A stretch of 64,000 bases of DNA from a virus. Each line of letters opens with the position of its first letter. Position 1 is the first letter of the stretch. Below are positions 6,308 through 37,877 of this stretch, piece after piece. The position numbers and the translations under genes are program-made. The stretch lies in the IMG/VR virus record IMGVR_UViG_3300027969_000050, positions 62,001-126,000 of that record; one strand, given 5' to 3'. The notes beneath the pieces were generated by a model. That model was not told the origin of the DNA and did not search any database. It was given only the letters and a program-made list of their open reading frames with translations.

Positions 6308-6446
6308 ATGCCCTGACTGCATGGCAACCAAAACGCACATCATCTACTGCGACGGCTGCTGGCTTAAGCTCGTCCGACGCTCCAAGGACGTCGGCTACAA
6401 GCTGCCCCTAAAGGAAGAGCCTAAGAGGGATCCTCGACGGGACTAG
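6300..6446 (+). CDS. Zinc-knuckle protein, 48 aa
   Basis: Small basic protein beginning MPRCPDCMA with a second pair CDGC at residues 17-20, i.e. a CxxC-x9-CxxC zinc knuckle, then a Lys/Arg tail. It overlaps the preceding gene by eight bases and converges on the leftward 612-aa gene with a 26-base tail overlap. Confidence 0.5.
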   Translation: MPRCPDCMATKTHIIYCDGCWLKLVRRSKDVGYKLPLKEEPKRDPRRD

Positions 6447-8259
6447 CCTCATCAGGCTCAAAGGTCCTTTGATTGAACAGCCCCTCGTTCTCAACGTGAG
6501 AACTTGAATCGCCTCCGCACAAAGGACAGTTCCATTGGCGATACTCCGCAGGGGGACAATTGCGACTACGACCGTGATGCATTTTCTCGTTCCAGCCGGA
6601 GGTCTTCTCATCACTGCCGCCATTAATTTTGTGGTACATCGAGTTGGCCCAAGAGCGACCAGCATCGCCACCCCAGAGAAGCCAAGCGGTCTTCCACGGA
6701 GAGTTGCCCTTCCCTCCATCATCGGGACGAGTCTTGTCATGCCGCTCAAAGAAAGAATGCATCCTCTGAATGTGATCGGAAGTAAGAGGCTTGCCATCAG
6801 CAATCGAATGAGCGCGAGTCACAGTTGCCGACTCAAGTCCGTCTCCAGCCTCCCCTTGATTGACTAGCTCAATACCACGCCGAGCATTAGATCGCGCTCC
6901 TGATGGGGCAACATAGGAAGCTCCAAATTTAAATTCATTGGCTGGCCGATAGCCTTTGCCCGACAAAAATTTTTCAATCGCCGTTGCCTCAACGGCAACA
7001 TCGCCTTGATCGCTTTCGATGTTGTGCTTGCGAAAGAACTCCAAAGGCGAATCATTGAGATCATAGCGAGAAGGCCGAAAGGACTCGGGATGTTCATCCG
7101 GGTTCATGCCAGTCATCTGCTTGATCGAATCCGCCATTTCTAAATGATAACCCTTTTCACGTCCGATGAAAATGGTCTTTGATTTGCCATCATCAAAAAT
7201 CCAGATTGGCCAATCGCCCTCCTCCGGAAAGACTTCGCTGTGATCTCCATGCACATCCTCAACGCCTGTCAGATCGACAACTTGAACGCTCAATGGCGGA
7301 ACCTCATCTTTTGCCCCTCGCTGCATACGATCATTCCAGTCCCGAGGCCAAAGGTCCTCATCATTTAGCTCGTCTTCATTCCAAGCCGATCCCGGCTCCT
7401 CAGGAAGGAGTGTGCGATCTGCAATCGGTATGGTCCCGAGGCTCCTTGGCTCGGTTCCCCTTGGCCGGTCATCAAGCGGATAAGCCCCAGCAATTTCGGT
7501 CTCTCGTTCAACAGCGTTGTTTACGTCTGGCACGGTTTGGCTTGGACCCTTGGGTTTCCTTGTTTCAACTCCATTTTGACCAAGAAGCCTTTGAATCGTG
7601 GGATAGCTGACATTAAACTCGCGTCCAATGGCCCTAAGAGACGCCCCACCTTCGTACATCTCTTTCACCTTGGCTATGGCCTCTGGAGTTTGAAGAGCGG
7701 CTGCCTCCGGAGGAATTTGAGGCCTGAGTTCATTTCCCTCATCGGTAAGAACTCTTCTAACGGTCTCCCCGGCAACTCCAAGCTCGCGTCCAATCTCCTT
7801 TACGGATTTTCCGCCCTCGTACATCTCTTGAACTTCCCTAAGCATTCCTCGAATCTTGTCAGCGTGACCTTTGGTGGGCGGTTGAATGCCACCACCAAAT
7901 TTCATACGCTCGTTCCAGCTCGATTGACGACCCGGCATATAAAACCCTTGTTCGACGCCCCAGCCATCATCGTCAAGTTGAAGCCAATCGAACCGCATAA
8001 AAAATTCTCGGTTCTCGATCTCATTGACAAATAACGTCTTGCCAGTCTGATCGGAGTACGCCTTTAGAGCAAGCATGAATTCGGAACCCAATCCGGATCC
8101 CTTTTCTAAGGCGTGAAGATTGTCAAGATGAACGCTATCCGAATCCTCACGAAGCGCGAACTCGATGTTGCCACTGCGCGTCTCCAATTGAAGCCCCGAA
8201 AATTCGCTGTTAGAAACAACGCCTCCCAATTGCTGGGCTATGAAATCTTGAACCTGCAT
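6421..8259 (-). CDS. Modular protein: GNAT-like, two HTH repeats, G-x4-YH module, 612 aa
   Basis: Start ATG 8259; the frame is open to 8382. Residues about 25-110 resemble a GNAT acetyltransferase (GSGLGSEFMLALKAYSD). Residues 138-175 and 193-231 are two helix-turn-helix repeats (EMYEGG..IGRELGV..TVRRVL and EMYEGG..IGREFNV..TIQRLL). Residues 325-445 hold one copy of the module repeated in the 2157-aa protein (IFIGREKGYHLEM), ending at FKFGAS (443-448). Residues 452-548 carry a phage C-terminal domain with WLLWGGDAGRSWAN. SSWN/SAWN/RDWN/SGWN phrases recur at 113, 291, 307 and 554. It may be a virion or DNA-associated adaptor; no function is proven. Confidence 0.7.
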   Translation of the reverse strand: MQVQDFIAQQLGGVVSNSEFSGLQLETRSGNIEFALREDSDSVHLDNLHALEKGSGLGSEFMLALKAYSDQTGKTLFVNEIENREFFMRFDWLQLDDDGWGVEQGFYMPGRQSSWNERMKFGGGIQPPTKGHADKIRGMLREVQEMYEGGKSVKEIGRELGVAGETVRRVLTDEGNELRPQIPPEAAALQTPEAIAKVKEMYEGGASLRAIGREFNVSYPTIQRLLGQNGVETRKPKGPSQTVPDVNNAVERETEIAGAYPLDDRPRGTEPRSLGTIPIADRTLLPEEPGSAWNEDELNDEDLWPRDWNDRMQRGAKDEVPPLSVQVVDLTGVEDVHGDHSEVFPEEGDWPIWIFDDGKSKTIFIGREKGYHLEMADSIKQMTGMNPDEHPESFRPSRYDLNDSPLEFFRKHNIESDQGDVAVEATAIEKFLSGKGYRPANEFKFGASYVAPSGARSNARRGIELVNQGEAGDGLESATVTRAHSIADGKPLTSDHIQRMHSFFERHDKTRPDDGGKGNSPWKTAWLLWGGDAGRSWANSMYHKINGGSDEKTSGWNEKMHHGRSRNCPPAEYRQWNCPLCGGDSSSHVENEGLFNQRTFEPDEASPVEDPS

Positions 8260-8333
8260 ATTATTTAACCCCCAGCAAGGGGACCCAACTAAGCAAAAGA
8301 CGGGACTCCTAAAGGGGACCCAAAGGGACCCGC

Positions 8334-8645
8334 TTACATCAAGCCGAGAGTACGACCCGCCGAGAGCCAACCGTGTTCGCACACGCCATCAGCTTCAACG
8401 TAACATCCTTCAGGACAATCCGTCAAGCCCATCGTGTCTTCCAACTCATGAGGAGCATATCCGTATTCAATATCTGATTGAAGTTCCGCCGCCGCATTTG
8501 GAGAAGGTTTCTCGCCTTGGCCGGTGGTGGGCTTAGAACCGGGAGGGCTAGGAATGTGATCGGGATGAACCCAACCGGGCTGCTCACCCTGTTGAGCGAT
8601 CTTCATTTCAGCCAGCATATCTTTAGATGTCGTAAGTTTCTTCAT
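8334..8645 (-). CDS. Hypothetical protein with CPEGC..CEHGW tail, 103 aa
   Basis: Lys-rich start (MKKLTTSKDMLAEMK), Pro-rich middle, then CPEGCYVEADGVCEHGW near the C-terminus, a Cys/His cluster that could bind zinc. This tail type occurs in other phage proteins from memory. Starts at 8651 or 8645 are both possible; no strong Shine-Dalgarno. Unknown function. Confidence 0.6.
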   Translation of the reverse strand: MKKLTTSKDMLAEMKIAQQGEQPGWVHPDHIPSPPGSKPTTGQGEKPSPNAAAELQSDIEYGYAPHELEDTMGLTDCPEGCYVEADGVCEHGWLSAGRTLGLM

Positions 8646-19774: not shown

Positions 19775-22700
19775 TCACAAACCGCTTTCTTTCCAGTCGA
19801 ACACGCCTGACGTTCTTCCCAAAGCCAAATTGAGAAGTTTGTCTCGTTCGTTGATCGAAGGATCGCCAATCACCTGACCCATAAGGCTCTCAAGAATTTG
19901 TCCGATCTCTGGGCCTCGAGGAACGCCAGCCTCAATTAAATCTTGGCCGTTGATTGCCAACTGAGAAAGATCAGTCGGCTGCTGCTGCTGGCGCACTTGA
20001 TCCACAAGGCCGCGCTGAACCTCGTACTCGTTGTCATCAAACGCATCTTGCCCTTCGCCCTTCGCCGCTTGATCAGCCCAGCGCAGGTTCAGCAGATCAT
20101 CTGCGTGCGGCTCGACCCGATTTAAAAATTTTCTTGCGCCCTTCTCCGAGTCAAACGGGGCAAACATATGGTGCTTTACGAGGTCCGAAACCCGATCAGT
20201 CCTGTCCTTCGGGTACCTCAAACGGGTCATTGCGTCCCTAGTCATTTCCTCACCGACGAGTTCGTGTTGCTGACCTATTGTGCTTCCGTCAGGCAGGCGC
20301 TTCTGGTAGTAATGGTTTGTTCCTCGCTCTGGATTCACCCAAGCGGATGCGGGCTTGCCAATATCGTGGAGCAAACCGGCCAAACGGGCATCTGGGTCAT
20401 CAGTTTTCTGACTGATTCGGTCAAGCACGTCAAGCATATGCTCGCCAAGTTCTAAAGCGTGGTGCGGATTGTTCTGGTCGTAGCCGAACGTTGCATCGAC
20501 CTCAGGCAAAATATATTTAAGTACGCCGCTGTCGTGGGCCAAACGGATGGCGCCGACTGGGTCGTCCGAAGAAAAAATTTTATCCAGCTCTGCTTGCACT
20601 CTTTCGGCTGGGAGATGTTGGAGGCTTGCTGCCGCCTCAGCCATTTGGGCAATCGTTCCCTCGTCAGGGTGAAGGCCATGCCGACCCTTAGCCACAAGCG
20701 CCCTAGCAACCCTGAGCGGATCCTCGCTTAGCGACTGGTCGTGGATTGTTCTTAGTCGCCCACCTGCGATGTCCTCAGCGCCATTGTGCGGATCAATAAG
20801 TTCGCCCGTTCCTAGATTGACGGCCATCGCATTCGCTGTGAAGTCACGCCTCAAAAGATCTTCTTCAGGCGAAAGGGTGTGGTCGGCATCAACAGAAAAA
20901 TCCGTGTGCTTGTCGCCAGTTGACTGTTCGTGGCGAGGCAGCGCGATCTCGACCTCCTCACCGCCCTGCTTGTAACGAAAGACGCCAAAATCTTTTCCTG
21001 TGTAATCAATGTCTCCACCCAGTGGAGCTAAAACCGAATCAATATTTTCTTTTGGAATACCAGAGACCATGAGGTCAATGTCCTTCGGGGTCTTGCCCAT
21101 GATCGTGTCCCGGACCGCGCCTCCAACTGCGTAAACCTGCCCACCAGCAGCCATAAGCGCTTCAACAACGGGCTGAATAACAGGATTGCTTGCGACAATT
21201 TGCCTTACCGACTGTCCCACATTGTCCTCAGCGGCTCCGAAGTGAAACTCGTCTCCGCCCTGACCTCGCGCCCTTCCACGGAGGCCTCCGCCCGGTTGTA
21301 GGTCCGGCTGACCCAAGGCGCGATTGATCATTTCCACCTGATCGGGGGTTGGGTTTCCATAAAAACTGATCTTCTGATCCTCTCTTGGCGGACCCGAGGC
21401 GTGACTATTCGGGGGCCAAGTTACTCGACCACTGAGAAAGGTTCCTTCCTGAAGGGCTTTCATCCAGAAAGTGATTGCGCTGGCGCCATCCCCATTCAAA
21501 AATTTATTTCTGAATTCGGAATCCTGCGAGAGCATCTCGTAGTGATAGCCACCGGGCGGTCCAAAATAAACGGCGTTGTCCTCCGGGAGATAGAACCAAG
21601 GGGCGTCTAGTTCAGGACTCTTGTGAACTTCGTTGGGCTGGAACTTGATGTAAACGACTTTTGGAGGATTCAGTTCGTCAAATGCCCCGAAACGAAAATC
21701 TTCTTCTTGCTCATCCAGAACCTCATCCGCAGGAAAAATATTTCTTAGGGCGTCGTTGACTCCCGGAGCCGGTTCCGTCAGACCTTGATTGTCGGAGTTT
21801 GGAAACGAATCTTCCCAACTAAAATTACCTGAATTTTGCCAATACTCGCCTCTGCAAGGATCGCCCGCCGCAATCAAATTTTCTCCAACGTTCTCAGAGA
21901 GTCCCATAGGACGACCCACCCTTGGAATATCAAACTCGTTTATAAGGTCCTCGTGATACTGACCGCGAAGGCCAACGTAAAGCGCATTGGCGGAAGGCCA
22001 ATAGATAAACGGAATTCGGTTTTCGTGGTAGTCCATTCCTTTCCTATTGTGTTCTTCATTCTGAGATATGAAAACCGTGACGCCTTGCCTAGTTCTATAG
22101 GTGCCAGCGGCTCCGAAACGGAAGCCCTCATCTTCTTGAGCCGGATCAGAAAAAATATTTATTAGCGCGTCGTTGAGTCCTGCTTCTGGTTCGGTGCCTT
22201 CATCGTTGAACCACTGAAGGGAGTCGTAGCTTGGTGGAATAAAACTTCCGTCACCCGGAACGCGGCGCCAATACTCGCCGTGTGTGTCAGGCCCAAAACC
22301 GCCGCGTAAATCGAAATCGGCTTCCGTCCAAGCCCCCCGAATGTCGAATTCTTCTACAAGGTCGTCGTGATACTGGCCAAAGACGCCAACATAGAGCGCG
22401 TTATTGACAGGGCAATAAATAAATGGCGCCCTGTCCTTGTTGAAAACCCTATGTTCATCTGGATCTTGTGATATCAAAACATCGGTGCCAAACTCAGTGG
22501 CCGCCCCGAAATGAAAGTCTTCAGGGCTTTCGCTTTGCCTCAAATCATCTAGATCAGCAAGCGGATAGTCGGGCAAACCAAGCGCTTCGCAGATGGCTGG
22601 AGCCAATGCCGCCGCCTCTGGGTTATTGGGATCAACAAAGTCGGGCATCAGGCGGTCAAACCTCGTCCAAAAAGAAAATCTTGGCGCGTCCTCGAGTCCG

Positions 22701-25700
22701 GCCTCCCTAAGAGCTTTTTCAATGATCACATGATGGATGTCGGGAACCGAGCCAATCCAAATTTGTCCCTGCTCAGGCAAAACAATTAGGGAGTAGCCTC
22801 CAAGCTCATCTCCTTCCCTAGGAATAATTATTCCTTTGTTCGCACGGCCCGTGCCGACAACTCGACCATCATCATCAAGCCAAACGGGAGTTAATTCTGT
22901 CGAGGATCCAAAGTGGAATTCTGAGGCTCCTCCGCCAACAAGGCCATTCAAAGCAGTAATCATTTCCGCTTGGACGCTTTCGGGGACTCGGCTGCCATAA
23001 AACACCAAGTCATTTGGCGGCGAGAACCTTCCAAAGAAATCATAAGACCCGTACTGATTGACGACGCCTCTAGGAAGCTTATTTGTCATTTCGTTATGAA
23101 AGCCGTCTTCCCTTCCAATAGCAATGCTCCATCCATCGTGCCGCGTCGCGTCAGGGTTCATCTCGAGATAGCGCCGTTCTTCTTCGGCTGGGACGCCGAA
23201 CCGCTCTTCGATGTTTATGTCTAGGGTTCCTTCGTCCCAAGCAACAACAGGGTAAAGCTTGTCCATACCTGCACTCGGATAAGGGGTACTCTCCAAATAT
23301 TCTCCGTGGCTTGGATAATCGGGATCCGCCTTGGCGCCCCTGAGGTCAAGCAGCTCGACATGGCTTAAGATGGCTCGAGATTTTTTCTTTGCGCCCTCAT
23401 CATCTCCTTGGCCTTCTTCGCTAAGATTTTTTAATTCTGAGATGTCGGTTGGCTCTTCAGGAATGATCATTGGTCCGCCCATTGATTTGGGGCAAGGACC
23501 GGGCTTGTGATTGAAGCCGCATTCCTCACAGGCACCAAATTTTAAATCCTCTTCGTCAAGCTCAACACGCACTTGTTCGCTCTTACGACGGAACTTATCA
23601 AGCACCTTTTGGATGCGCGAAGTTGACTTTTTTCCTCCAGAGAGAAAATCGGAGTTCCGGATACCACTTTCATTTTCATTTTCGAACGAATTCACCCAGT
23701 TTCTAAGGATATTTGCGAAGATCGGGGCGTCAAGTTCATCATCTTTGGCAAATGCGTTTGCCTGACTATCGGCAGGTTGGGCAGGTTGCGTATCAGAGAA
23801 GGAAAAGTCAGGATCCCCAAGGAAATGATCAACAATTCCCTCGCCTCCTTGCGGATCAAACGCCTCCCAGCCTGTTCCAAAGGGCTTGTTGTCTGCTCCG
23901 AACTTAAAATCTTCTTGCTCCCACTGCTGGCTAATGTCAAGATTGTCGATAAAGGCCTTGATATTAGAGGGGATCGGCTGTTCATCATAAGGCGGGCGCA
24001 TCCAATCAACCGGACCAAATTGACTTTTCCTTCCTTCCCACGCAGCTCCGTCGATTGCGCCCAAAGTCAAATGCGAGTCCCAAGTGGTTCCAACTTGAAC
24101 CGTGTTGCTTTTTGGCCAATAAATAATCGGACAGTCGCCTCGAGGATCGGGCGCACCGCCGCCGGTTGATTCAAAGACGACCTTTGGCTCCTCTGAAGCG
24201 CCAAATTTAAAATCTTTGGGCGTTCCAAAGAACTCATCAAGCTTTGCTTCGCAAGCAGCCTTCTCTGATTCGGATAAATTTTCCAGACCAGACCCCCACA
24301 GTTCGCCATCGTATCGGCACTGAGCAACAAAAGTAAGATCTTTGTTTACATCCACCGCTCTGTTAGGAATGTCTGAGTGGTAGGCCCCTTCAGCTCCGAT
24401 ATACATATTGATTAGGCTTGCTGGCGCCCATTCGGAACTTTGGTCCAACAAGGCATAAATATAAACTGGGTGGGACACGCCACCACCCTCATCATCATGT
24501 TCAGATCCGTAGTCGGATTCCTTGATTAGATCGATGACATTGATCTCTGGTTGCTCTGCCGCTCCAAACTTAAACCCGGGAGTGGTACCCAAAAATTCAT
24601 CCAGACTATTTTGAATGTCTTCACGAAGCATGGGATCACCATCAGCAATAAAATCGCGTCCATGAGGATAACGCAGAAGAGGCAAAGTTGAGATATCCAC
24701 CCCATCAATCTCTGCTCGTTTTGCGACCTCACGGAATTTCGGATCCCCCATAATTTCTTCGTGATAGCCATTTGGCCTACCGACGAAAACTTCGTATTTT
24801 ATATCGCCCTCCCAAGGATGTCCTACCGGAACAATTATTATTGGCCAATCGGTTCCACCGGTATCGATTCTTTCGTTGTGGTCTCCGTGAAGGTCACGGA
24901 CTCCAGTCAGGTCAACCACCTCAACAAAATTAGGAAGCGAGCCGCCTTCGTCTTCTAAGACCGAACCGAACTTAAACCCGGGATCCGTACCCAAAAACTC
25001 GTCCAGATCCTTTTGGATGTTTTCCGGGACGTATTGGCGTCCAGACGGGTAGCGACTGTAGCCGACCTCTTCGTACCACTTCCGTGAAAAGACATCAGAA
25101 CCGGACATGCGTTTTTCGAACTCGGGATCCTCTTCTATTTCAGTATGGAAGCCGTTTTCTCTGCCAACAAAGACGGTCCAGCGATTTCCTACTGGAACAA
25201 TAATTATTGGCCAGTCAAAGGATCTAGGTTGCTTGCTTGGTTCGTCCCCGACTTCAGAAATAAAAGCGTCGTGGCCACCGAAGCGATCATCCATTTCGGT
25301 TAGGTCGATGATCTCGACATCCTCATTAGAACCGAATTTAAAATCGTCTTGAACTCCGAGGGCCGACTTTACCGCTGAATCAAATTCGACTGTCCATCCA
25401 TCGGGGTACCCCCGGCCAGCGGAGCCATACTCATGCTCGCTGCCCAAAAGCATCCACTGGGTAATTGCATCGTTTACACGAAATAAAGCAACTTGATCAC
25501 CGTAAAAACGATCAACATACCTTGCTCCTCCGGGAGAGGCGATGCCACGCGCAGTAAGTACCGTCATCACATCTTCATGGAAATCATCATAACTTCCAAT
25601 AAAAGCCCTTGTCTCCGTCGGGCCTAAGATTGCTATTCCGGGTCGATCTCCGGTTCCATGCGAACCGTTAAGATTTGCGTCGTTGGCGTCTGAGGTATCA

Positions 25701-26248
25701 AGGATTTCTACTGAGACTGGGACGGTCTCGATCTGTGAGCGCAACCTGCCATCAGAACCAAATTTAAAATCTTCTTGTGCGGGACCCATTACTGGCGCCA
25801 CTCGCTGTAATTCTGACTTGACTGCTGATTCAAATTCGGGAGGTGGACGTGGAATTTCCACAGTGTCCGTCCAATCACTGGAATTGTTCCCGTACCAATC
25901 CTCAATAGTTCCATCAGGATAAACCCGGAAACAAACAACCGGGCCAAGATCGGAAGAGAAAGCGCGAAAGTCTCCCGGCTGTTGGGTCAGAATTCCCTGA
26001 GCTTCCAATATGGCAATTAAGTCATAATGAAATGCTTGATATTCGCCAATGAAAACCTTTATCTCCGTCGGGGCAAAGATCGCTACTCCGGGGCGGTCTC
26101 CGGTGTCGTGCGTTTGCCACGAGTCATAATGCCTTGACTCTGAGGTGTCGAGAACCTCAACTGAAATTGGAAGCGAGTAATTCAGAACCCGCGTCACACC
26201 GTCAATGTTGGTCCAGCCGTCATTGTCAAATTCGGTTAGGTCGTCCAC
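19775..26248 (-). CDS. Giant modular protein with C-terminal CCA-adding enzyme, 2157 aa
   Basis: Start GTG 26248, just after an in-frame stop. Residues 1-1672 contain twelve F-x-F-G-[AS] motifs (first residue at 161, 303, 425, 559, 680, 781, 902, 1111, 1245, 1376, 1518, 1668; the one at 902 is LKFG). Eleven of the twelve segments share [IVF]-G-x4-[FYIS]-H (e.g. VFVGRENGFHTEI). Residues about 1680-2157 are a full class II tRNA nucleotidyltransferase with HD domain: GGAVRD (1709-1714), DID (1723-1725), RRDFTANAMA (1800-1809), a DPLRVARAL helix (1843-1851), HDIGKP (1961-1966) and a KHHM motif. It is the last gene of the structural block. I infer a virion-associated or processed polyprotein; cleavage is not shown. 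Confidence 0.75.
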   Translation of the reverse strand: MDDLTEFDNDGWTNIDGVTRVLNYSLPISVEVLDTSESRHYDSWQTHDTGDRPGVAIFAPTEIKVFIGEYQAFHYDLIAILEAQGILTQQPGDFRAFSSDLGPVVCFRVYPDGTIEDWYGNNSSDWTDTVEIPRPPPEFESAVKSELQRVAPVMGPAQEDFKFGSDGRLRSQIETVPVSVEILDTSDANDANLNGSHGTGDRPGIAILGPTETRAFIGSYDDFHEDVMTVLTARGIASPGGARYVDRFYGDQVALFRVNDAITQWMLLGSEHEYGSAGRGYPDGWTVEFDSAVKSALGVQDDFKFGSNEDVEIIDLTEMDDRFGGHDAFISEVGDEPSKQPRSFDWPIIIVPVGNRWTVFVGRENGFHTEIEEDPEFEKRMSGSDVFSRKWYEEVGYSRYPSGRQYVPENIQKDLDEFLGTDPGFKFGSVLEDEGGSLPNFVEVVDLTGVRDLHGDHNERIDTGGTDWPIIIVPVGHPWEGDIKYEVFVGRPNGYHEEIMGDPKFREVAKRAEIDGVDISTLPLLRYPHGRDFIADGDPMLREDIQNSLDEFLGTTPGFKFGAAEQPEINVIDLIKESDYGSEHDDEGGGVSHPVYIYALLDQSSEWAPASLINMYIGAEGAYHSDIPNRAVDVNKDLTFVAQCRYDGELWGSGLENLSESEKAACEAKLDEFFGTPKDFKFGASEEPKVVFESTGGGAPDPRGDCPIIYWPKSNTVQVGTTWDSHLTLGAIDGAAWEGRKSQFGPVDWMRPPYDEQPIPSNIKAFIDNLDISQQWEQEDFKFGADNKPFGTGWEAFDPQGGEGIVDHFLGDPDFSFSDTQPAQPADSQANAFAKDDELDAPIFANILRNWVNSFENENESGIRNSDFLSGGKKSTSRIQKVLDKFRRKSEQVRVELDEEDLKFGACEECGFNHKPGPCPKSMGGPMIIPEEPTDISELKNLSEEGQGDDEGAKKKSRAILSHVELLDLRGAKADPDYPSHGEYLESTPYPSAGMDKLYPVVAWDEGTLDINIEERFGVPAEEERRYLEMNPDATRHDGWSIAIGREDGFHNEMTNKLPRGVVNQYGSYDFFGRFSPPNDLVFYGSRVPESVQAEMITALNGLVGGGASEFHFGSSTELTPVWLDDDGRVVGTGRANKGIIIPREGDELGGYSLIVLPEQGQIWIGSVPDIHHVIIEKALREAGLEDAPRFSFWTRFDRLMPDFVDPNNPEAAALAPAICEALGLPDYPLADLDDLRQSESPEDFHFGAATEFGTDVLISQDPDEHRVFNKDRAPFIYCPVNNALYVGVFGQYHDDLVEEFDIRGAWTEADFDLRGGFGPDTHGEYWRRVPGDGSFIPPSYDSLQWFNDEGTEPEAGLNDALINIFSDPAQEDEGFRFGAAGTYRTRQGVTVFISQNEEHNRKGMDYHENRIPFIYWPSANALYVGLRGQYHEDLINEFDIPRVGRPMGLSENVGENLIAAGDPCRGEYWQNSGNFSWEDSFPNSDNQGLTEPAPGVNDALRNIFPADEVLDEQEEDFRFGAFDELNPPKVVYIKFQPNEVHKSPELDAPWFYLPEDNAVYFGPPGGYHYEMLSQDSEFRNKFLNGDGASAITFWMKALQEGTFLSGRVTWPPNSHASGPPREDQKISFYGNPTPDQVEMINRALGQPDLQPGGGLRGRARGQGGDEFHFGAAEDNVGQSVRQIVASNPVIQPVVEALMAAGGQVYAVGGAVRDTIMGKTPKDIDLMVSGIPKENIDSVLAPLGGDIDYTGKDFGVFRYKQGGEEVEIALPRHEQSTGDKHTDFSVDADHTLSPEEDLLRRDFTANAMAVNLGTGELIDPHNGAEDIAGGRLRTIHDQSLSEDPLRVARALVAKGRHGLHPDEGTIAQMAEAAASLQHLPAERVQAELDKIFSSDDPVGAIRLAHDSGVLKYILPEVDATFGYDQNNPHHALELGEHMLDVLDRISQKTDDPDARLAGLLHDIGKPASAWVNPERGTNHYYQKRLPDGSTIGQQHELVGEEMTRDAMTRLRYPKDRTDRVSDLVKHHMFAPFDSEKGARKFLNRVEPHADDLLNLRWADQAAKGEGQDAFDDNEYEVQRGLVDQVRQQQQPTDLSQLAINGQDLIEAGVPRGPEIGQILESLMGQVIGDPSINERDKLLNLALGRTSGVFDWKESGL
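21235..26248 (-). repeat. Twelve tandem protein modules ending in F-x-F-G-[AS]
   Basis: Coding repeat array inside the 2157-aa gene. Unit lengths are about 101-209 codons. The pairs 1/2, 3/4 and 10/11 are most alike (DRPGVAIFAPTE / DRPGIAILGPTE; DWPIIIVPVG in both; PFIYCPVNNALYVG / PFIYWPSANALYVG), which suggests successive pairwise duplications. Unit 7 lacks the G-x4-[FY]-H signature; unit 8 opens with a CEEC..CPK zinc knuckle. Confidence 0.7.
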
Positions 26249-26722: not shown

Positions 26723-28174
26723 CTAGCGCGGCCCCATAAACGGATCGCTGATGTCTGGTCTAGGGGCAAGCTGACTGGACGGCAAAATGCACTCTACGAA
26801 GTGAGGCTGAAGCTCGCCTGACTGATGAAGCGGGAAGTGAACAGTCACCCAGTCTAGGGTGGGGTCGTAAGAAAAAACTTTTCCAACCGAGTTAGGGCCA
26901 ACCAGAACCATCTCGCCGGTACCGTTCCCCGGCGCCCCACCAACAGCAGCGCCATACTCGCCATTCCAATTCTGAGCATCTCGTGGCGGAAGGAGCTGAA
27001 CGACATCCTCCTGATTAAATATTTTTTCTCCCGCCGCAGTCCGAACATGCGTGTAGGTTTTTCCAAGAACCCTTGACAAGGCACCCGGCATATGAATATT
27101 TCGCCCGCCAGTTTGGTCATCGGCCTTGGGTTGAGAGAACGGAAGCTCTAGTTGTTCTCCGGGCTGTCCGGGCTGATCTGGGATAACGTCAAACTGGTCG
27201 CTAGGGTTAGCCATAGGATTAGTGCTTTGTCCCTGACCGCGACTTGGAGACGGCTTGGGAACCTGAGCAGGCTGGCCCGTAAGCTGCTCTGGAGCGCCAT
27301 TAGGCTTGCCAGAGGGGGCGGAAGGGGCAGACGGGGCGGAAGGTCCTGCGGGACCCATAGAAGGTCCAGTGGGCGAGGTAGGAGCCGAGGGGGCGCCCGG
27401 AGCAGCGCCACCCGACCCTCCGCCATCGATCTCTTCCTTATCAACGCCCTTCGGAACACCACCGCCTGTTCCGACCTCATTTGTTGGGCCGCCTCCACCG
27501 GGAGCCTGACCGACGCCCTTATCGAACAACTGACCCTGCTGTACAGGCTGGGTTTTCTTCATTCCACGAGGCATCTGACCGTGGATATTGGGGTCGTAAT
27601 CGTCAATTGGCGTAGCCATTGCCTGCCACATAGTTGCGATAACGTGAGAGCAAGAGCGGCCTTCTAGATACTTCCACTTACGGGTACGTTGAAATGCGTA
27701 CTGATCCCAAGGACACTCGCAAGTCCACTGAGTAATCGCCATTGAGTTTGGGTCGTCACGACTGATCGTACACTCGTACTCGCCGTGATCGCCAGTGACA
27801 TTTGAGACGACGACATTCCAGCCATTCCGGAGGATCGTCACCTGACCATTATTTTTTAGACGGACGGCTTTGGCTTTGACGTCATCCCAAGTTGCCGTTC
27901 TAGAATTATCGAAAAGGGTGAAATGCGCCCTGCGATAACCAAATGGCTTTAGATCCTCGTAAACGATCTGCTCAGCAAGATGGCGATCATCATGGGATCC
28001 GCCCTCAGACATAATTACTGCCTGCCCTGCCGGACCTTCCCACCAGCTAACCCTAGTTGAGCCAAGGGTTTGGAACTTAGGCGGCAGGTCTTTTGGCTGA
28101 GAACCTATTGCTAGGCCGACATAATCTTCGAACCAAGTCTTTTCTTCTTGGGCGGTAAGGACGCTCCAAGACAT
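26723..28174 (-). CDS. SWIM zinc-finger protein with low-complexity linker, 483 aa
   Basis: Residues about 125-190 carry a SWIM finger: CECPWDQYAF..SCSHVIATMW, i.e. CxC then CxH. SWIM fingers bind DNA or protein. Residues 220-345 are Gly/Pro/Ala/Ser-rich (repeated PSAP, PGG). Residues 350-483 form a second folded part ending HFVECILPSSQLAPRP. It sits in the structural block three bases from the fibre-like gene, which suggests a virion or assembly role. Function unproven. Confidence 0.65.
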   Translation of the reverse strand: MSWSVLTAQEEKTWFEDYVGLAIGSQPKDLPPKFQTLGSTRVSWWEGPAGQAVIMSEGGSHDDRHLAEQIVYEDLKPFGYRRAHFTLFDNSRTATWDDVKAKAVRLKNNGQVTILRNGWNVVVSNVTGDHGEYECTISRDDPNSMAITQWTCECPWDQYAFQRTRKWKYLEGRSCSHVIATMWQAMATPIDDYDPNIHGQMPRGMKKTQPVQQGQLFDKGVGQAPGGGGPTNEVGTGGGVPKGVDKEEIDGGGSGGAAPGAPSAPTSPTGPSMGPAGPSAPSAPSAPSGKPNGAPEQLTGQPAQVPKPSPSRGQGQSTNPMANPSDQFDVIPDQPGQPGEQLELPFSQPKADDQTGGRNIHMPGALSRVLGKTYTHVRTAAGEKIFNQEDVVQLLPPRDAQNWNGEYGAAVGGAPGNGTGEMVLVGPNSVGKVFSYDPTLDWVTVHFPLHQSGELQPHFVECILPSSQLAPRPDISDPFMGPR

Positions 28175-28176
28175 GA

Positions 28177-29733
28177 TTATGAAATAATGCCGTACTTCTT
28201 GAGGTCTTGAATGAGTGAGTTGAGCGTGACCCTAAGCGCATCAACATTGTCGTTTGTAGCTGTCATGGTGGATGAAAGACTACCATTTTTAATTCCGAAG
28301 CCGGAAGCTGCGTTTGTATACGATCCAACGTAACTTGGTAGGGTGGTAAGCGTAAGCCCACCTAAACCATTGTTACCGACGCTTTTAACTCCGGTTGCGG
28401 CAGCAAACACGACACCGTAAGATAATGAAACGGTGGCGTTAGCGCTGGCGGCTCCGGTAGCGCTCTGGCTCATTGTGATCGTGTAAGGGTTGCTTCCGCT
28501 AACAGCGGTAATAACCGCCGTATTCTGCTCGACAAGAGTGCTTCCGCCAGAGACGACAGAGACGCCCTGACCGACGATTGGCGCGGTGGCCGTCGTCAAT
28601 CCAGTTACCTGATCGAAGGCTGGGCTGGTAATAGACCCGCCAGTGATTGTTTGCGAAGAGGCTAGGGCGGAATACGTTACTTCGTATGACTGATCTTGGC
28701 ATTGTGCTTCGCCTGAAGCAAATCCCGAGTTTGATCCGGGATCAATCTCTGGTCCGCCGACAGTAAATGTGGTTGAGGTAACGGAAGAGATCGTAAACTC
28801 TCCGTTATAAGAAAGATTTACGGCACCCGAGATAATGACGCGAGAGCCAACAGTTAGAGAATGAGCTGCCGAGGCCGTAAAGGTGTAATCATAGGTGTTC
28901 GGAGAGACACTACTGTTTAGCGTCCTTGTGGCAGAAGTAATTGAAAGCGTTTGATCCGGGCGGACGGTAATAATTCCGCTGGTAGGGAATCCTGAAAGGC
29001 TCGACTGAGCCGCCAGAACTCGAGTCCCAGACCCGGCGATGTAAGGGAAAGCTGTAAAGCTTGACGAGTATCCGTTCGTCTCCGTGTTGCCGGACACCGT
29101 AAGCTCGGTGCCGCCGCTGTCATTTGCCGTTGCCGTGATCACAACGTTCTCACCAAACTTAATTGAGTCGTTTCCGAGAGTGACTCCGGCACGAGTGAAG
29201 GTTCCGCTATCAACGTTACCCGCCACAGCTTCGAAATACTGGGTGGCGTCTAAGTTTAGACCAGAAATTTTAATTACATATTGGCCCTCGTCAAGCCATC
29301 CTTCAATCCGTCCATAGGCATCAGTCTTAAGCGACGTGATTGGCGTAATGTTCGTCGGGTTGGAGTACAAATAAATTAGCGACTGAGAAAGAGGAACCTT
29401 GACTGCTGTTCCGCCAGAGATAACCGGAATGTCTGGTCCGCTAGTGCCTCCTACCAAAGAAAACGAGCTGGTCGTTGGGATGGCGGTAATGGCCGCTCCG
29501 GTTACGTTGTAGGCTGGAATCGATGATCCCGTGACGGTGATGAGATTTCCAACAGCCAAATTGTGCGGATAATCCGTCACATATGTGTAGGTTACGCTTG
29601 ATGCGCTTGCCGATGACAGGCCGTAAACGTTGCCTCCAGCGTCATAATCTGCGCGCTTAAAGACGGAGACGTCGGCACCCTCGACAGGGCGACCTTTCTT
29701 ATTCAGAACGACAAATGGAATTTCAACGCGCAT
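28177..29733 (-). CDS. Fibre- or baseplate-like beta-rich protein, 518 aa
   Basis: Thr/Ser/Gly/Val-rich with repeated beta motifs: HNLAVGNLITVTGSS..FSLVGG and HSLTVGSRVIISGAV..FTVGG, and an N-terminal carboxypeptidase-like Ig start (NKKGRPVEGADVSVFK). This is typical of phage tail or baseplate decoration proteins that bind surfaces. The C-terminal ~35 residues are helical and may trimerise. It overlaps the upstream nucleotidyltransferase gene by 11 bases. Confidence 0.65.
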   Translation of the reverse strand: MRVEIPFVVLNKKGRPVEGADVSVFKRADYDAGGNVYGLSSASASSVTYTYVTDYPHNLAVGNLITVTGSSIPAYNVTGAAITAIPTTSSFSLVGGTSGPDIPVISGGTAVKVPLSQSLIYLYSNPTNITPITSLKTDAYGRIEGWLDEGQYVIKISGLNLDATQYFEAVAGNVDSGTFTRAGVTLGNDSIKFGENVVITATANDSGGTELTVSGNTETNGYSSSFTAFPYIAGSGTRVLAAQSSLSGFPTSGIITVRPDQTLSITSATRTLNSSVSPNTYDYTFTASAAHSLTVGSRVIISGAVNLSYNGEFTISSVTSTTFTVGGPEIDPGSNSGFASGEAQCQDQSYEVTYSALASSQTITGGSITSPAFDQVTGLTTATAPIVGQGVSVVSGGSTLVEQNTAVITAVSGSNPYTITMSQSATGAASANATVSLSYGVVFAAATGVKSVGNNGLGGLTLTTLPSYVGSYTNAASGFGIKNGSLSSTMTATNDNVDALRVTLNSLIQDLKKYGIIS

Positions 29734-30484
29734 CAGTCTTTACGTCCTTGATTAGCCCTGAATAGTTGGTCTTGGCGATGTATTCGCCAGTAGACTCGCT
29801 GATCTGATCTAGCAGGCCTCGATTGGCCAGCATCTTGTAGACAAGATTGGACGGAGCGAAGTCGCCCTTGCCTGCTCTCTGGTCAATCCGACGGCGCTTA
29901 TGGATCTGGTGCCAAAAGGTCTTGGCCTTGTAAGGCTCGTAACGCAGTAGGCGCTCCATTTTGTCAGCCTGCTCTAGCGCGTAGGTGTAAGCGGAGTTAT
30001 AAATTACCTCTGGATCCCTAGCCATTTCGCGGTCAGGAGGATTAACCCACTCGTCATTGAGAATCTCGTAGCCCGAACGCAGCCCCTTCTTATAGAGATC
30101 GGTTGGCAAAACGCCCTCTGGCACAATAAATACCTGAAGGGGATGAGTGGTCATCGGAAGAATGCTTCCGTCCAACTGCTCAACTGCGATGCCAATCATC
30201 TCGGCCCTTGACCACTCAGGAAAAATTTCTGAGTTGACGAACAAGGAGATGTCAAAATCGCTGTCTTCCGAGTACTGGTAGGTCGTGAGGCTGCCAGTGA
30301 CGTAAAGGCTGCCCCAGTTCTGGACATCGTAGCCATGCTCGTTAAACCTGTCAAAGACAAGCTTCTCAACCCACGTTTTATGCTCAAATTTCAGCGTTGG
30401 CTTGACGGATACCGACCCGTCCCAGACCGTAGGGTCTAGCGTTTCATTGATCGGATCGAGAATATTAGACTTCTTAGGCTTCAT
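29723..30484 (-). CDS. Nucleotidyltransferase-fold protein, 253 aa
   Basis: Residues 63-82 read TGSLTTYQYSEDSDFDISLF: the GS and DxD (D76, D78) motifs of the polymerase-beta-like nucleotidyltransferase fold. The following region is helical with a basic KTFWHQIHKRRRIDQR segment. The substrate is unknown; AMP, GMP or nucleotide transfer to RNA or protein are all possible. It sits between the pseudo-nucleotidyltransferase protein and the fibre gene. Confidence 0.65.
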   Translation of the reverse strand: MKPKKSNILDPINETLDPTVWDGSVSVKPTLKFEHKTWVEKLVFDRFNEHGYDVQNWGSLYVTGSLTTYQYSEDSDFDISLFVNSEIFPEWSRAEMIGIAVEQLDGSILPMTTHPLQVFIVPEGVLPTDLYKKGLRSGYEILNDEWVNPPDREMARDPEVIYNSAYTYALEQADKMERLLRYEPYKAKTFWHQIHKRRRIDQRAGKGDFAPSNLVYKMLANRGLLDQISESTGEYIAKTNYSGLIKDVKTDAR

Positions 30485-32447
30485 AGCGTCCGTCCCTCAG
30501 ATCAACGCGATCCTCCACGATCTCCTTGGCGTCCTCGACAATAAAAATTTTAAGCACGGATGACCTCGAGTCCCTCCTCCAAGTAAAAGCCCCTTGATCA
30601 AGGCCAATCAGGTTTAGCTCACCGAGTCCCTCGAGCGTCCGGCGGACTAATTTTTTATTTTTTGAGACAACCTTGAACATGTCTGGAGTTGGAACTTCTC
30701 CTTGCTTTGCCACCTTGAGGGCGTTGCCAACAGCAAAAACCTCGCATCCAGCGGTCAATAAGGCCGAAGTTACGGCCTCTACGTCAGAATTGCTCAAAGA
30801 CCCAATGAAAACAAGGCTGCCTGTGTTTGCAAGCTTCGTCGTTCCGCCATTAATATTTTGCAGCTCCACTGAGTTGACCTTCAGCTCAGGATGCTGGTAA
30901 TACCAGAGGCGAATCAGGTGACGCACTGTGTAGGGGATCGTCGTCGTAGATTTAATTAGGAGCTTTTTAGAGTCGTAAACGCCTTGAACCGTGTTCTCAT
31001 AGCCAGAATCTACCGAGAGATCAGCAACCTGCATGCCCGGATCCCCAACAACAATCGAGTCATCCTCAACGTCGTAAATAAAAGGAATGGGCAGGGCGAC
31101 TGGGTCTACCGCCGACATAAAAGTGATTTCGCCCACTCCTTGAGGCTGTCTCGGGGTGAAATGCGGATTAAAAGTAGCGTCTGGATCAGTGTTAGGGAAG
31201 TGATCGTTCATGACTAGCGTGTCGGATTCGGCCTCGCGGTGCTTAATGAACTCGTGCCACGATGGAAGGAGCTGCTCGCATTCAGGACATTGATAGAGGC
31301 CATTAATTCTTTTTGGGTCCGAAAGTCCAATGGACCCATTTTGCTGTCCGGCGATTGCGCTTTCCTCTGCTGCGGTGTCGTTGAAGAACTGGCCGTCATC
31401 ATTGGCCGGATTTGGGTTTGAAAAGTTGTGTTCTTCCAAATCCTCGATGCGCTTTACAACGTTGTCATTGCCAGCCAGAACAAACTTCAAATTGTTGTCA
31501 TCGGCGTATTCGTTCAGTGCGGACAGAAGCTTAACCCCAAAAATTTTATTTGGGAGCTGGATGTCATCTCCTTCAACCTTGAGAGTCCCAACCGTCATTT
31601 GCCCCGAAAGACGGGTCGCAATCTTGGACCAGTCCTGCTTATGCGAGATTAGGCACTCGTCTCCTTGCTGAACAAAATAAAGATAAGAAGTCTTTGAGGC
31701 CACTTCATGGCCCTCCATGTTGGAAAGGCCGCTCCAAGAAAGACCAACGGAGTTGCAGTACTGCTTCAGGACATCCGAGAGCGCATTGAGGCCAATATTT
31801 GTTTCGACCTCCCATGATGCATTGTCATCCGGGTCAATTTTTAGCGTCCCAACTGCAATTGGCCCCGAAGTTTCGGGGTTTACTAGGCTTTCGAGCGGTT
31901 TGTCATCGACGATGAGCTGCCCATCCGCATAAGAAAAATTTAATTTCTTCGGTTCACGCATGTCGTGGTCCATGTACGACCGATCAATGTGATCTCGATT
32001 GTCCTGAGCCTGAGGTTCCTCAGCAGGAAGGGCGTCACCGGCATAATCCATTGAGACGCGAGCAAAGTGATTGAGGTTCTTGAAAATATTTTCTGCTCGA
32101 TCAGCGAAACGCTCACTCCTCTCGGTGGCCTTTGGACGAACAACATCTAGTCCTCGGTAAAGGGGGTGCGACATGGACTTGTAGATGATGTACTTGTACC
32201 GGTCGCAGGTCAGGTCAATTACATATTTTTTGTCGGACGAGACCCAGACGTAGTGGCCATTGTCCTCGCCAATAAAGCCGCCAAGACGGCGCGTAAGCCA
32301 GAATGAGGTGACGTAGCACTGGCCTTTAGAGGCGTCCTGATCTCCACTGAACTCGGGGTGGCGGGTGTCGTCGTTCCACGCTTTTTCTGCGGCAGACTTA
32401 AGGGCGTGTAACTCGCCCTGAGAAATTGACTTAGGATCGAAGGTCAA
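30474..32447 (-). CDS. YunG-like domain, zinc finger and degenerate nucleotidyltransferase, 657 aa
   Basis: I prefer TTG 32447, which overlaps the upstream stop and has GGAG eight bases before it; TTG 32477 is also open. Residues 41-92 resemble the YunG papain-like fold: GQCYVTSFWL (Cys44), GHYVWV (His65), VIDLTCD (Asp78). The middle has two GT-L-K repeats (VGTLKIDPDDN and VGTLKVEGDDI) and a C2H2-like CPECEQLLPSWHEFIKH. Then comes IPFIYDVEDDSIVVGDPGM, a decayed copy of the 2157-aa module lacking His. Residues 543-657 match the N-terminus of the CCA-adding enzyme, but GGAVRD has become GNALKV and DID is lost. Confidence 0.6.
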   Translation of the reverse strand: MTFDPKSISQGELHALKSAAEKAWNDDTRHPEFSGDQDASKGQCYVTSFWLTRRLGGFIGEDNGHYVWVSSDKKYVIDLTCDRYKYIIYKSMSHPLYRGLDVVRPKATERSERFADRAENIFKNLNHFARVSMDYAGDALPAEEPQAQDNRDHIDRSYMDHDMREPKKLNFSYADGQLIVDDKPLESLVNPETSGPIAVGTLKIDPDDNASWEVETNIGLNALSDVLKQYCNSVGLSWSGLSNMEGHEVASKTSYLYFVQQGDECLISHKQDWSKIATRLSGQMTVGTLKVEGDDIQLPNKIFGVKLLSALNEYADDNNLKFVLAGNDNVVKRIEDLEEHNFSNPNPANDDGQFFNDTAAEESAIAGQQNGSIGLSDPKRINGLYQCPECEQLLPSWHEFIKHREAESDTLVMNDHFPNTDPDATFNPHFTPRQPQGVGEITFMSAVDPVALPIPFIYDVEDDSIVVGDPGMQVADLSVDSGYENTVQGVYDSKKLLIKSTTTIPYTVRHLIRLWYYQHPELKVNSVELQNINGGTTKLANTGSLVFIGSLSNSDVEAVTSALLTAGCEVFAVGNALKVAKQGEVPTPDMFKVVSKNKKLVRRTLEGLGELNLIGLDQGAFTWRRDSRSSVLKIFIVEDAKEIVEDRVDLRDGRYEA

Positions 32448-33508
32448 AACGGCATCTCCGAATTGGGATCTTCCCAAATTTCATCTGCCGATCCGAACTG
32501 TGGATCGTCGCTGAAGAACAGCTCGTCCTTTGTGGGGGCGCGAAAATCAAACATTTGGCTTGGTTTTACAATGGGGTAGCTGTTCTCATGCGGATTCATA
32601 AATGGGTTTTCAAAGGGAATCTGCTTCAGAAGCGCGTACTGCTCAGGGTCCGACTTAGGTTGAGCGCGAAACTTGCCAAATCCGTAGTAAGTCGTGTTGG
32701 CCCTTGACCCGCCGCTGCCCTGCCAGCCGGAAAGAGGAGTCTCCTTGACATAGATATCAACCATGCTATTGTTGAAGTCGAAGACGGGCAAAACGGCCAG
32801 CAATGCGTCAATGTCGTTGTTCCCTTGCGTGTAGGCTTCAGCTTCAGCCGTCCTACGAGCCGCTACGTTCTCATGCTCTGCTGGCACCTCAGGGACGTTC
32901 ATGCGAGGCTGTATTCCAAGCTGCTGGGAAAGCTCAGGCTCATGGGTTGCGTAATTAGCCGCGTAGTCATGCTTCTTGGCTCGGTCAGCGTTGTTCACGA
33001 TGAACTCTGGATTAGCATTATCGACGTTTGCAGACTTGACCTCGATCCCGTAAACGGTTCCATTGGCGTCACGAGACAATCCGTCTAGGCGACCGTGTTC
33101 CGCAGCTCCACCCGAAGACAGTGATTCGACACCCGGCTGCCACCAAATAATTTCTCCGTACTTGGCCTGCCACTCAGGACTCTTGGAAACGACTTCGTTA
33201 ATAGCCGCCTCGCCCATTTTCCCAAATTGACTGAGCGACATCCCTGCGCGGGCGACATGCTCATTGTCTTGTTCTTTATCAATTCGTTCAAGAAGATCCT
33301 GATTTTGACCGCAATGTGGGCAGTCATACTCGCTGTACTGGCGCTCTGTAAGCCAATCGATGCCCTGAGGCGAAGCGTAGAAATGACACCTAGGAGCCTC
33401 GCACTTTCTCCAGCCGTTTGCTACGGCCTCCTGAGCCTCGGCGGAGGTCTCCATAACCTCGCCAAGATGCAGGCCGTCCTCTTCGATTGGGTAGCTGGAA
33501 GTTCGCAT
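32444..33508 (-). CDS. PD-(D/E)XK nuclease-like protein, 354 aa
   Basis: An N-terminal Cys group (CEAPRC, CPHC; residues 36-66) suggests zinc. The core GRLDGLSRDANGTVYGIEVKS (139-159) has Asp142 and Glu156-x-Lys158, matching a PD-(D/E)XK site, with a preceding helix containing Glu100. The C-terminal half is unassigned and ends FSDDPQFGSADEIW. It may be a nuclease packaged or used in DNA processing. Overlaps the next gene by four bases (TTGA). Confidence 0.6.
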   Translation of the reverse strand: MRTSSYPIEEDGLHLGEVMETSAEAQEAVANGWRKCEAPRCHFYASPQGIDWLTERQYSEYDCPHCGQNQDLLERIDKEQDNEHVARAGMSLSQFGKMGEAAINEVVSKSPEWQAKYGEIIWWQPGVESLSSGGAAEHGRLDGLSRDANGTVYGIEVKSANVDNANPEFIVNNADRAKKHDYAANYATHEPELSQQLGIQPRMNVPEVPAEHENVAARRTAEAEAYTQGNNDIDALLAVLPVFDFNNSMVDIYVKETPLSGWQGSGGSRANTTYYGFGKFRAQPKSDPEQYALLKQIPFENPFMNPHENSYPIVKPSQMFDFRAPTKDELFFSDDPQFGSADEIWEDPNSEMPF

Positions 33509-36676: not shown

Positions 36677-37877
36677 ACCTTTGGCCTCTCCAATAGAGTT
36701 TGTTGTCAACGAATGTGGCTAGGTCGATGCTGAACGTGCCATCTTCAAAAACGTTGGCCGTGGCGAATCCTTGCTGCCAATCTGCGTTCACGGCGTAACC
36801 TAGACCGCCCTCAATCTGACACATGCAGCCTGTCTCAACCGCAGTCAGAGTGGTGGGCTTACCATTAATATCATAATTTGTTTTGTGGACACGACTTTGC
36901 CTATGCGTGTGTCCCACGACAATCGAATACCCAAGGTGATCCAGAGTCGCCAAAGCCGACGCTCCAGAGCCTTTTCGGGCAATCCAACCATGTCGGGCAG
37001 CCAAGTGTTCAGAGACGTTGATCTGAGCGTGCTTGTAGGACCCGTGAGGCTCTACATAATCAATTCCAAGCTCATCTAGCCTTAAGAGATAATCTACGCT
37101 GAAAATCGATTTATTGTCGTCTGCGCGAGTCAGGTTATATAGATCAGGAACGCGATCAATAATGCTTCGACGCAGCCGCTCATCGTGATTGCCAGAAAGC
37201 TTAGTCCAATGCGTCTTTTCTGACGACTGAACATAGTCCCTTAGCAAGCCATAAGCCGAGTCAATGCATTCTTGCGTGGTAGCAGCCCAGTCAGGTTCCG
37301 CTGGATGGCGGGACACGTTTGGAAGGTCCATTGTGTCTCCAATGAGAATTCCCTCTTCCGGCTTTTCCTCAGCTAAGAAAGAACAGAATGCATTGTGAAG
37401 GTCCTTGTCGTGGAAAGGAGCCTGAGGGTCTCCAACAAACACAACAAGCTTTCCGTTCTTATTGCTTTTTTGTGTCTTGGGCCTCTTGTAGTCGCCATCG
37501 ATACGAGCGGGTGAGATGCTCGGGGCTTTGCGGTTAAAGGTTGCCCTTAGCTGACGGTTCTCACCATTTTCTCCCCACTCATTGACACGAAGGTTTGTGA
37601 CCTCCCAATCCTCAGGGTCAAGATTACGATCCTCTAAAAGACCCTCAAGGTCTCCAAGATCATAGTCGGCAATTTCCATGACCTGTTCATTGGTGTCAAT
37701 GACGATCTTGTTTGAGTTCCAGCGCTTTAGCGCTCGACGGATTGAATGGCGCGATGTATCCAAGCCCTTCTTACCAAGCTTGTCAGCAATTTCAGTATGG
37801 GTTAGACCTTCTGAGTCCCATGCTTCAATTGTTTCGCGGTGTTTGTCTAGTTCGGAATAGTGAGATTTATTCATCAT
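36669..37877 (-). CDS. Calcineurin-like metallophosphoesterase with N-terminal HTH, 402 aa
   Basis: Residues 1-55 form a helix-turn-helix (TEIADKLGKKG..SIRRALKRW). Residues from about 140 give the metallophosphoesterase motifs: VFVGDPQAPFHD, IGDTMD, SGNHDER, and VVGHTHRQS with a terminal GCMC. It should be a metal-dependent phosphodiesterase or phosphatase of unknown substrate; the HTH suggests action on DNA. It directly follows the portal gene, overlapping its end by 11 bases. Confidence 0.7.
   Translation of the reverse strand: MMNKSHYSELDKHRETIEAWDSEGLTHTEIADKLGKKGLDTSRHSIRRALKRWNSNKIVIDTNEQVMEIADYDLGDLEGLLEDRNLDPEDWEVTNLRVNEWGENGENRQLRATFNRKAPSISPARIDGDYKRPKTQKSNKNGKLVVFVGDPQAPFHDKDLHNAFCSFLAEEKPEEGILIGDTMDLPNVSRHPAEPDWAATTQECIDSAYGLLRDYVQSSEKTHWTKLSGNHDERLRRSIIDRVPDLYNLTRADDNKSIFSVDYLLRLDELGIDYVEPHGSYKHAQINVSEHLAARHGWIARKGSGASALATLDHLGYSIVVGHTHRQSRVHKTNYDINGKPTTLTAVETGCMCQIEGGLGYAVNADWQQGFATANVFEDGTFSIDLATFVDNKLYWRGQRYE

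Follow-up and report, generated by a model that had tools for sequence, protein, structure and literature searches.

The stretch analysed here, a 64,000-nucleotide window covering positions 62,001 to 126,000 of the 140,266-base IMG/VR virus record IMGVR_UViG_3300027969_000050 (G000 coordinates refer to that genome), contains a leftward gene for a protein of 2157 amino acids (aa) in which the motif [FL]-[KRH]-F-G-[AS] occurs twelve times ahead of a CCA-adding enzyme. The motifs start at residues 161, 303, 425, 559, 680, 781, 902 (LKFGA), 1111, 1245, 1376, 1518, and 1668, exactly where the initial annotation had placed them, compared with a mean of 0.015 and a maximum of 1 in 5000 shuffles, and the reversed motif is absent from the protein. 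Since the motif codons differ among the copies, the motif is conserved at the protein level. Directly ahead of it, every one of the twelve copies has D, E, or G, and nine have D or E.

By all-against-all comparison and profile, we found that eleven of the twelve segments closed by the motif represent a single domain of ~120 aa (the module) in divergent copies. Its core reads D-x-P-[IF]-I-Y-x-P...V-[FY]-[IV]-G-x-x-G-x-Y-H-x-D-[LI], in which the His is invariant across 18 aligned copies. The initial annotation had spoken of many small modules; these are not many different ones, because eleven segments are copies of one domain. Segment 7 is unrelated to them; it was matched by a hidden Markov model trained with segment 7 and missed by a model trained without it. 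The identity of most other modules to segment 4 is mostly 20-35%, and an assembly or duplication artefact was ruled out, the modules being at most 42% identical and the codons variable. Profile and fold searches gave no Pfam, PHROG, PDB, or BFVD match to the module, and Foldseek with the module model had no hit with E<0.001 in either PDB or BFVD.

The AlphaFold2 model of a single module (segment 4) shows an α/β fold with a mean predicted local distance difference test score (pLDDT) of 77.5. The folded part scores mostly 73-95, and the chain from FKFGA onward (residues 130-146) falls below 50 and is disordered; a model of two modules together reached a pLDDT of just 46.5 and was set aside as too poor. 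The motif is thus predicted to sit in a disordered tail or linker outside the module fold, and not inside a continuous fold, the location that the initial annotation had named as speaking against its junctions. Further copies of the module exist elsewhere in the same genome, one in a 653-aa polyvalent protein and one in a ParB-like protein, and in related phages, three in L009 and two clear ones in L056. Modules also occur in proteins that have SWIM, ParB-like, and helix-turn-helix (HTH) domains but no CCA enzyme.

Residues 1704-2141 form a complete tRNA nucleotidyltransferase, in agreement with the earlier description, with matches to PolyA_pol PF01743 (1e-23), PolyA_pol_RNAbd PF12627, HD PF01966, and tRNA_NucTran2_2 PF13735 in Pfam and to phrog_2244 (5e-75) in PHROG. 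The elements G[GS]xxRD, DxD, RRDxTxNA, and EDxxR are all present together with the RNA-binding domain and the HD domain, so that the C-terminus is, as judged from its sequence, an intact class II CCA-adding enzyme. Its best NCBIfam match, TIGR02692, scores 200 bits, under the curated cut-off of 439, and it is 50-53% identical to the enzymes of three related phages, L017, L019, and L020. Three tRNA genes (Lys, Leu, and Asn) lie in the window, the only hits reported there by Rfam, and none of the three encodes CCA, which makes them an obvious substrate for the enzyme. A 143-aa HNH endonuclease-like ORF overlaps the tRNA-Leu gene and follows the apparent 5' half of another tRNA-Leu; a tRNA gene may have been invaded or duplicated here.

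By homology of its portal, head maturation protease, and major head protein (MCP), with PHROG matches to phrog_2833, phrog_18299, and phrog_2522 (2e-93 for the MCP, which is encoded in the rest of the genome), the phage is Bxz1-like (Ceeclamvirinae-related). The 2157-aa gene lies on the same strand as, and downstream of, the genes for the portal and for the YunG/zinc-finger, nucleotidyltransferase-like, and SWIM proteins. Portal, protease, MCP, and terminase genes are found in the same genome and the gene order is similar in L056, a context typical of polyvalent proteins. Polyvalent proteins are defined by disparate catalytic domains; here a single enzyme stands with an uncharacterised domain in eleven copies. 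The features are listed in Table 1.

Table 1. Features of the putative polyprotein gene and of related loci (window coordinates unless marked otherwise)
Feature	Residues	Coordinates	Strand	Remarks
Putative polyprotein gene	1-2157	19775-26248	-	GTG start, weak ribosome-binding site
Segment 1, module copy	1-165	25754-26248	-	ends FKFGS
Segment 2, module copy	166-307	25328-25753	-	ends FKFGS; 40% identity to segment 1
Segment 3, module copy	308-429	24962-25327	-	ends FKFGS
Segment 4, module copy	430-563	24560-24961	-	ends FKFGA; 42% identity to segment 3; AlphaFold target
Segment 5, module copy	564-684	24197-24559	-	ends FKFGA
Segment 6, short module copy	685-785	23894-24196	-	ends FKFGA
Segment 7, acidic, non-module	786-906	23531-23893	-	still ends LKFGA
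Segment 8, Cys-rich N-terminal stretch and module copy	907-1115	22904-23530	-	ends FHFGS
Segment 9, module copy	1116-1249	22502-22903	-	ends FHFGA
Segment 10, module copy	1250-1380	22109-22501	-	ends FRFGA
Segment 11, module copy	1381-1522	21683-22108	-	ends FRFGA; 42% identity to segment 10
Segment 12, module copy	1523-1672	21233-21682	-	ends FHFGA
CCA-adding enzyme		19775-21232	-	intact motifs GGAVRD..DID, RRDFTANA, EDPLR, HDIGK
653-aa polyvalent protein		6421-8382	-	HTH repeats, one module copy, phrog_2859 domain
SWIM zinc-finger protein		26723-28174	-	69% identical to L056
Second nucleotidyltransferase-like protein		29723-30484	-	GS..DFD; TGSLTTYQYSEDSDFDIS
YunG/zinc-finger/module protein		30474-32477	-	degenerate CCA-enzyme head, TKLAN junction
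Portal protein		37867-40101	-	41% identity over 77% to Bxz1-group mycobacteriophages
HNH endonuclease-like ORF, 143 aa		52885-53400	-	
Head maturation protease, 840 aa		G000:23609-26131		phrog_18299 (5e-17)
937-aa polyvalent-type protein		L033 1426-4239 (G000:41426-44239)	-	phrog_3170 (unknown function), FRTAN site
ParB-like protein		G000:52005-53507 (elsewhere in genome)		one module copy, ends AKFGR

Forms of the motif also stand at other domain boundaries of this phage. The initial annotation had noted FKFGA in a 612-aa protein; the FKFGA is there, at residue 484, in an ORF of 653 aa, the 612-aa version of which starts at an internal ATG. In order, this protein consists of an N-terminal domain ending WNERMKFGG (residue ~162), HTH repeats, the module ending FKFGA, the phrog_2859 domain, and WNEKMHHG. 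Variants follow non-module domains as well: MKFGG in this protein and, in ORF 606-1223, MKIGA (WNDIMKIGA) after a zinc ribbon. Three proteins of the same phage, ORFs 606-1223 and 6421-8382 (-) and L033 18364-19995 (-), share a second boundary motif, W-N-[DEG]-x-M-[KH], with the instances SSWNDIMKIGAG, SSWNERMKFGGG, TSGWNEKMHHG, and TSGWNGLMHS. A stretch of the 937-aa polyvalent-type protein resembles a helix-hairpin-helix DNA glycosylase.

In the related phages L017, L019, L020, and L056, the YunG/zinc-finger protein carries the CCA enzyme behind its modules or module-like units. These relatives carry an intact enzyme where the corresponding protein of the present phage keeps a degenerate head at its C-terminus, with VFAVGNALKV in place of VGGxxRD (33% to L056, E 3e-16); it thus seems that the intact enzyme was transferred to, or regained on, the putative polyprotein. 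The second nucleotidyltransferase-like protein has no Pfam or NCBIfam match; in L019 and L020, its counterpart is part of the CCA-enzyme protein and follows the enzyme there. The boundary ahead of the CCA enzyme reads FHFGA here, YKLAS in L019 and L020, QKLAA in L017, TKLAG in L056, and TKLAN in the degenerate protein, and the boundary behind it reads RRTAN in L020 and ARTAG in L056. The repeat units of L017 end in FRLSA, FRFSN, and FKLTA, which are intermediate in form. Ahead of the SWIM domain, the junction is SRTAT here and RKTAA in L056, where a module copy precedes it.

The KLA- and KTA-type junctions belong to a pattern that is widespread in the head proteins of this group. In the phage's own head and polyvalent proteins, [KR]-[TVLI]-A-[AGSDN] occurs 20 times against 6.1 expected (P 7e-6), and it is unenriched in its tail proteins (11 vs 7.4) and in its replication proteins and enzymes (8 vs 6.1). 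The protease proteins are the richest, with 7 vs 0.7 in the phage's own protease, 10 vs 0.8 in L011, and 8 vs 1.6 in LRRHood gp91, and with a slightly wider pattern the counts in E3 are 7 vs 1.3 for gp77 and 4 vs 0.7 for gp76. When 13,200 class patterns were scanned without bias in five head-maturation-protease proteins of the Bxz1 group, [KR].A was the most enriched, followed by [KR][ST]A. [KR]TA[small] outnumbers its reverse by 16 to 0 in the proteases and 18 to 0 in other head proteins; for [KR][TVLI]A[small], the counts are 33 vs 4 and 35 vs 4, respectively, and 16 vs 11 in non-head LRRHood proteins. For the four-residue form, this reversed-pattern control speaks against local composition as the cause of the [KR]xA enrichment, and that explanation was rejected. 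Aromatic forms occur at the protease N-termini (MAFTKFAS in this phage, MGFTRYAT in L011) and near the N-terminus of the MCP (GRFAK in E3 and LRRHood, GRYAT in Phrappuccino). Seen in the head regions of L005, L072, L073, L041, and L032, [KR]-[TS/VLI]-A-small is directional and head-specific across the Bxz1/E3/Phrappuccino group. We regard [KR]-[TVLIFY]-A-small as a candidate recognition site of the group's head maturation protease, and no such motif was found for the Bxz1/E3/Phrappuccino group in the literature searched. FKFG[AS] fits the order basic-hydrophobic-small-small with F and G, and may be a related, not identical, variant.

We infer that the 2157-aa protein may be a head-cargo polyprotein cut at its junctions by the head maturation protease, a reading to which we give about even weight. 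Eleven diversified modules and the CCA enzyme would be taken into the prohead as one string, and the motif in each flexible linker would be a processing site of the phage's own protease, FxFG[AS] being a local variant of the group's site. Cutting at maturation would release the CCA enzyme along with about twelve small proteins, all of which would be ejected together with the DNA. The enzyme would then complete or repair the 3' CCA ends of phage tRNAs and possibly host tRNAs, and the modules may act as early effectors. The full claim, one product cut at twelve junctions into diversified effectors and a CCA enzyme that enter the host, which would be analogous in logic to the polyproteins of eukaryotic viruses, is put forward tentatively as somewhat doubtful.

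Several points weigh against cleavage at these junctions. FxFG, with G for A and H tolerated, differs systematically from the KTA/KLA core, and it is absent from the phage's MCP and tail proteins and from its protease, which has KFAS. The three-residue [KR].A is just 1.4-fold above its reverse, and the enrichment was tested partly on proteins picked after inspection, a choice of which the proteases, E3, and Phrappuccino are independent. The alignment of the pre-CCA boundary agrees only within about two residues. Among the isolates and contigs searched, the array is present in one genome only: no second array was found with the polyprotein, CCA, SWIM, and 653-aa queries against viral contigs, with the module query against genome contigs, or in isolates. 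Phage isolates gave no match to the module region, their matches being confined to CCA enzymes at about 34% or below, no module was found in LRRHood, and neither a module nor a CCA enzyme was seen in the portal relative L011 (70%), the record of which may be a fragment. The literature searched held no virion proteomics for the E3/Bxz1 group or for this metagenome-derived phage.

The initial annotation had left cleavage and docking or packaging side by side as roles of the junctions. The motif itself is real; it lies outside the modelled fold, persists in segment 7, recurs at other domain boundaries, and replaces the relatives' KLA-type motif ahead of the CCA enzyme, with KLA/KTA motifs being head-specific and enriched in the protease. 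As a docking or packaging tag, the FxFG[AS] tails would bind the capsid, scaffold, or portal interior, and the uncut string would be loaded and ejected. A linear motif that is strictly conserved, exposed on the C-terminal side of every unit, and immediately preceded by acidic residues would suit such a tag, repetition would give avidity, and the N4 virion RNA polymerase is packaged uncut despite a peptidase domain (PMC5512222); we nevertheless consider it unlikely, as related motifs occur within the protease tail and between the relatives' enzyme domains, as processing sites would. It is similarly improbable that the protein is an ordinary tandem-repeat protein with no cleavage or packaging, in which duplication kept the motif as the C-terminal end of the repeat. 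Eleven homologous segments, among which the pairs 1/2, 3/4, and 10/11 are recent and 40-42% identical, agree with duplication, but most other module pairs are far less alike while the motif is still present in 12 of 12 segments, it lies outside the fold, segment 7 keeps it without the domain, and it recurs after non-module domains. Least probable is a cytoplasmic tRNA-maturation protein, the modules of which would keep tRNA or phage RNA in place for the CCA enzyme at a late stage of infection without virion delivery: the intact enzyme, the phage tRNAs without encoded CCA, and the module or module-like unit ahead of the enzyme also in L056, L019, and L020 would fit it, but modules occur in SWIM, ParB-like, and HTH proteins without a CCA enzyme, the gene lies among head polyvalent genes away from the tRNAs, and three tRNAs only face eleven modules.

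If the preferred reading of a cleaved head-cargo polyprotein is true, a tailed phage delivers many small proteins from one gene by polyprotein logic, and an RNA-repair enzyme is virion cargo. The analysis also yields a candidate recognition motif that can be tested, [KR]-[TVLIFY]-A-small together with its FxFG form, for the head maturation proteases throughout the Bxz1/E3/Phrappuccino group, and the new module may mark effector-type proteins and help to find others. The initial annotation knew of no described phage protein of this kind. The protein is nevertheless not without precedent, since nucleotidyltransferases in polyvalent virion proteins are a familiar theme. Its parts are of known kinds (polyvalent or ejection proteins and CCA enzymes), which the tandem array of one new domain, joined by a conserved junction motif, varies in a new way.

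The closest known systems are the polyvalent proteins of phages and conjugative elements, which are predicted to be packaged, injected, and sometimes processed (Iyer et al. 2017, PMC5512222). The 2157-aa protein resembles them as a large multidomain protein encoded beside portal and terminase genes, with partner domains in the same genome (ParB-like, HTH, nucleotidyltransferase, and zinc fingers) of the sorts reported for that class; however, they combine disparate domains, whereas here eleven copies of one domain and one enzyme share one linker motif, and a search of that paper for the terms CCA and tandem gave no comparable case. In the Salmonella phage SPN3US, the cargo of which is ejected with the DNA, head proteins likewise carry protease motifs, some of them in several copies, and the prohead protease gp245, which processes head and ejection proteins at A-X-E, also cleaves off the propeptide at its own C-terminus (PMC10052503). 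The SPN3US proteins mostly lose N-terminal propeptides, cut after Glu (PMC10052503), whereas here up to twelve internal basic-hydrophobic-small sites would release separate proteins. The head regions of Bixzunavirus LRRHood, Rhodococcus phage E3, and Phrappuccino share the portal, the long-tailed protease, the major head protein, a LysM- or SWIM-type polyvalent protein, and [KR]-[TS]-A sites with this phage, which differs from them and from other isolates in its module region. In the case of the actinobacterial CCA tRNA nucleotidyltransferase (TIGR02692) and phage phrog_2244, the domains and catalytic motifs are the same, but the enzyme here is fused to a string of modules.

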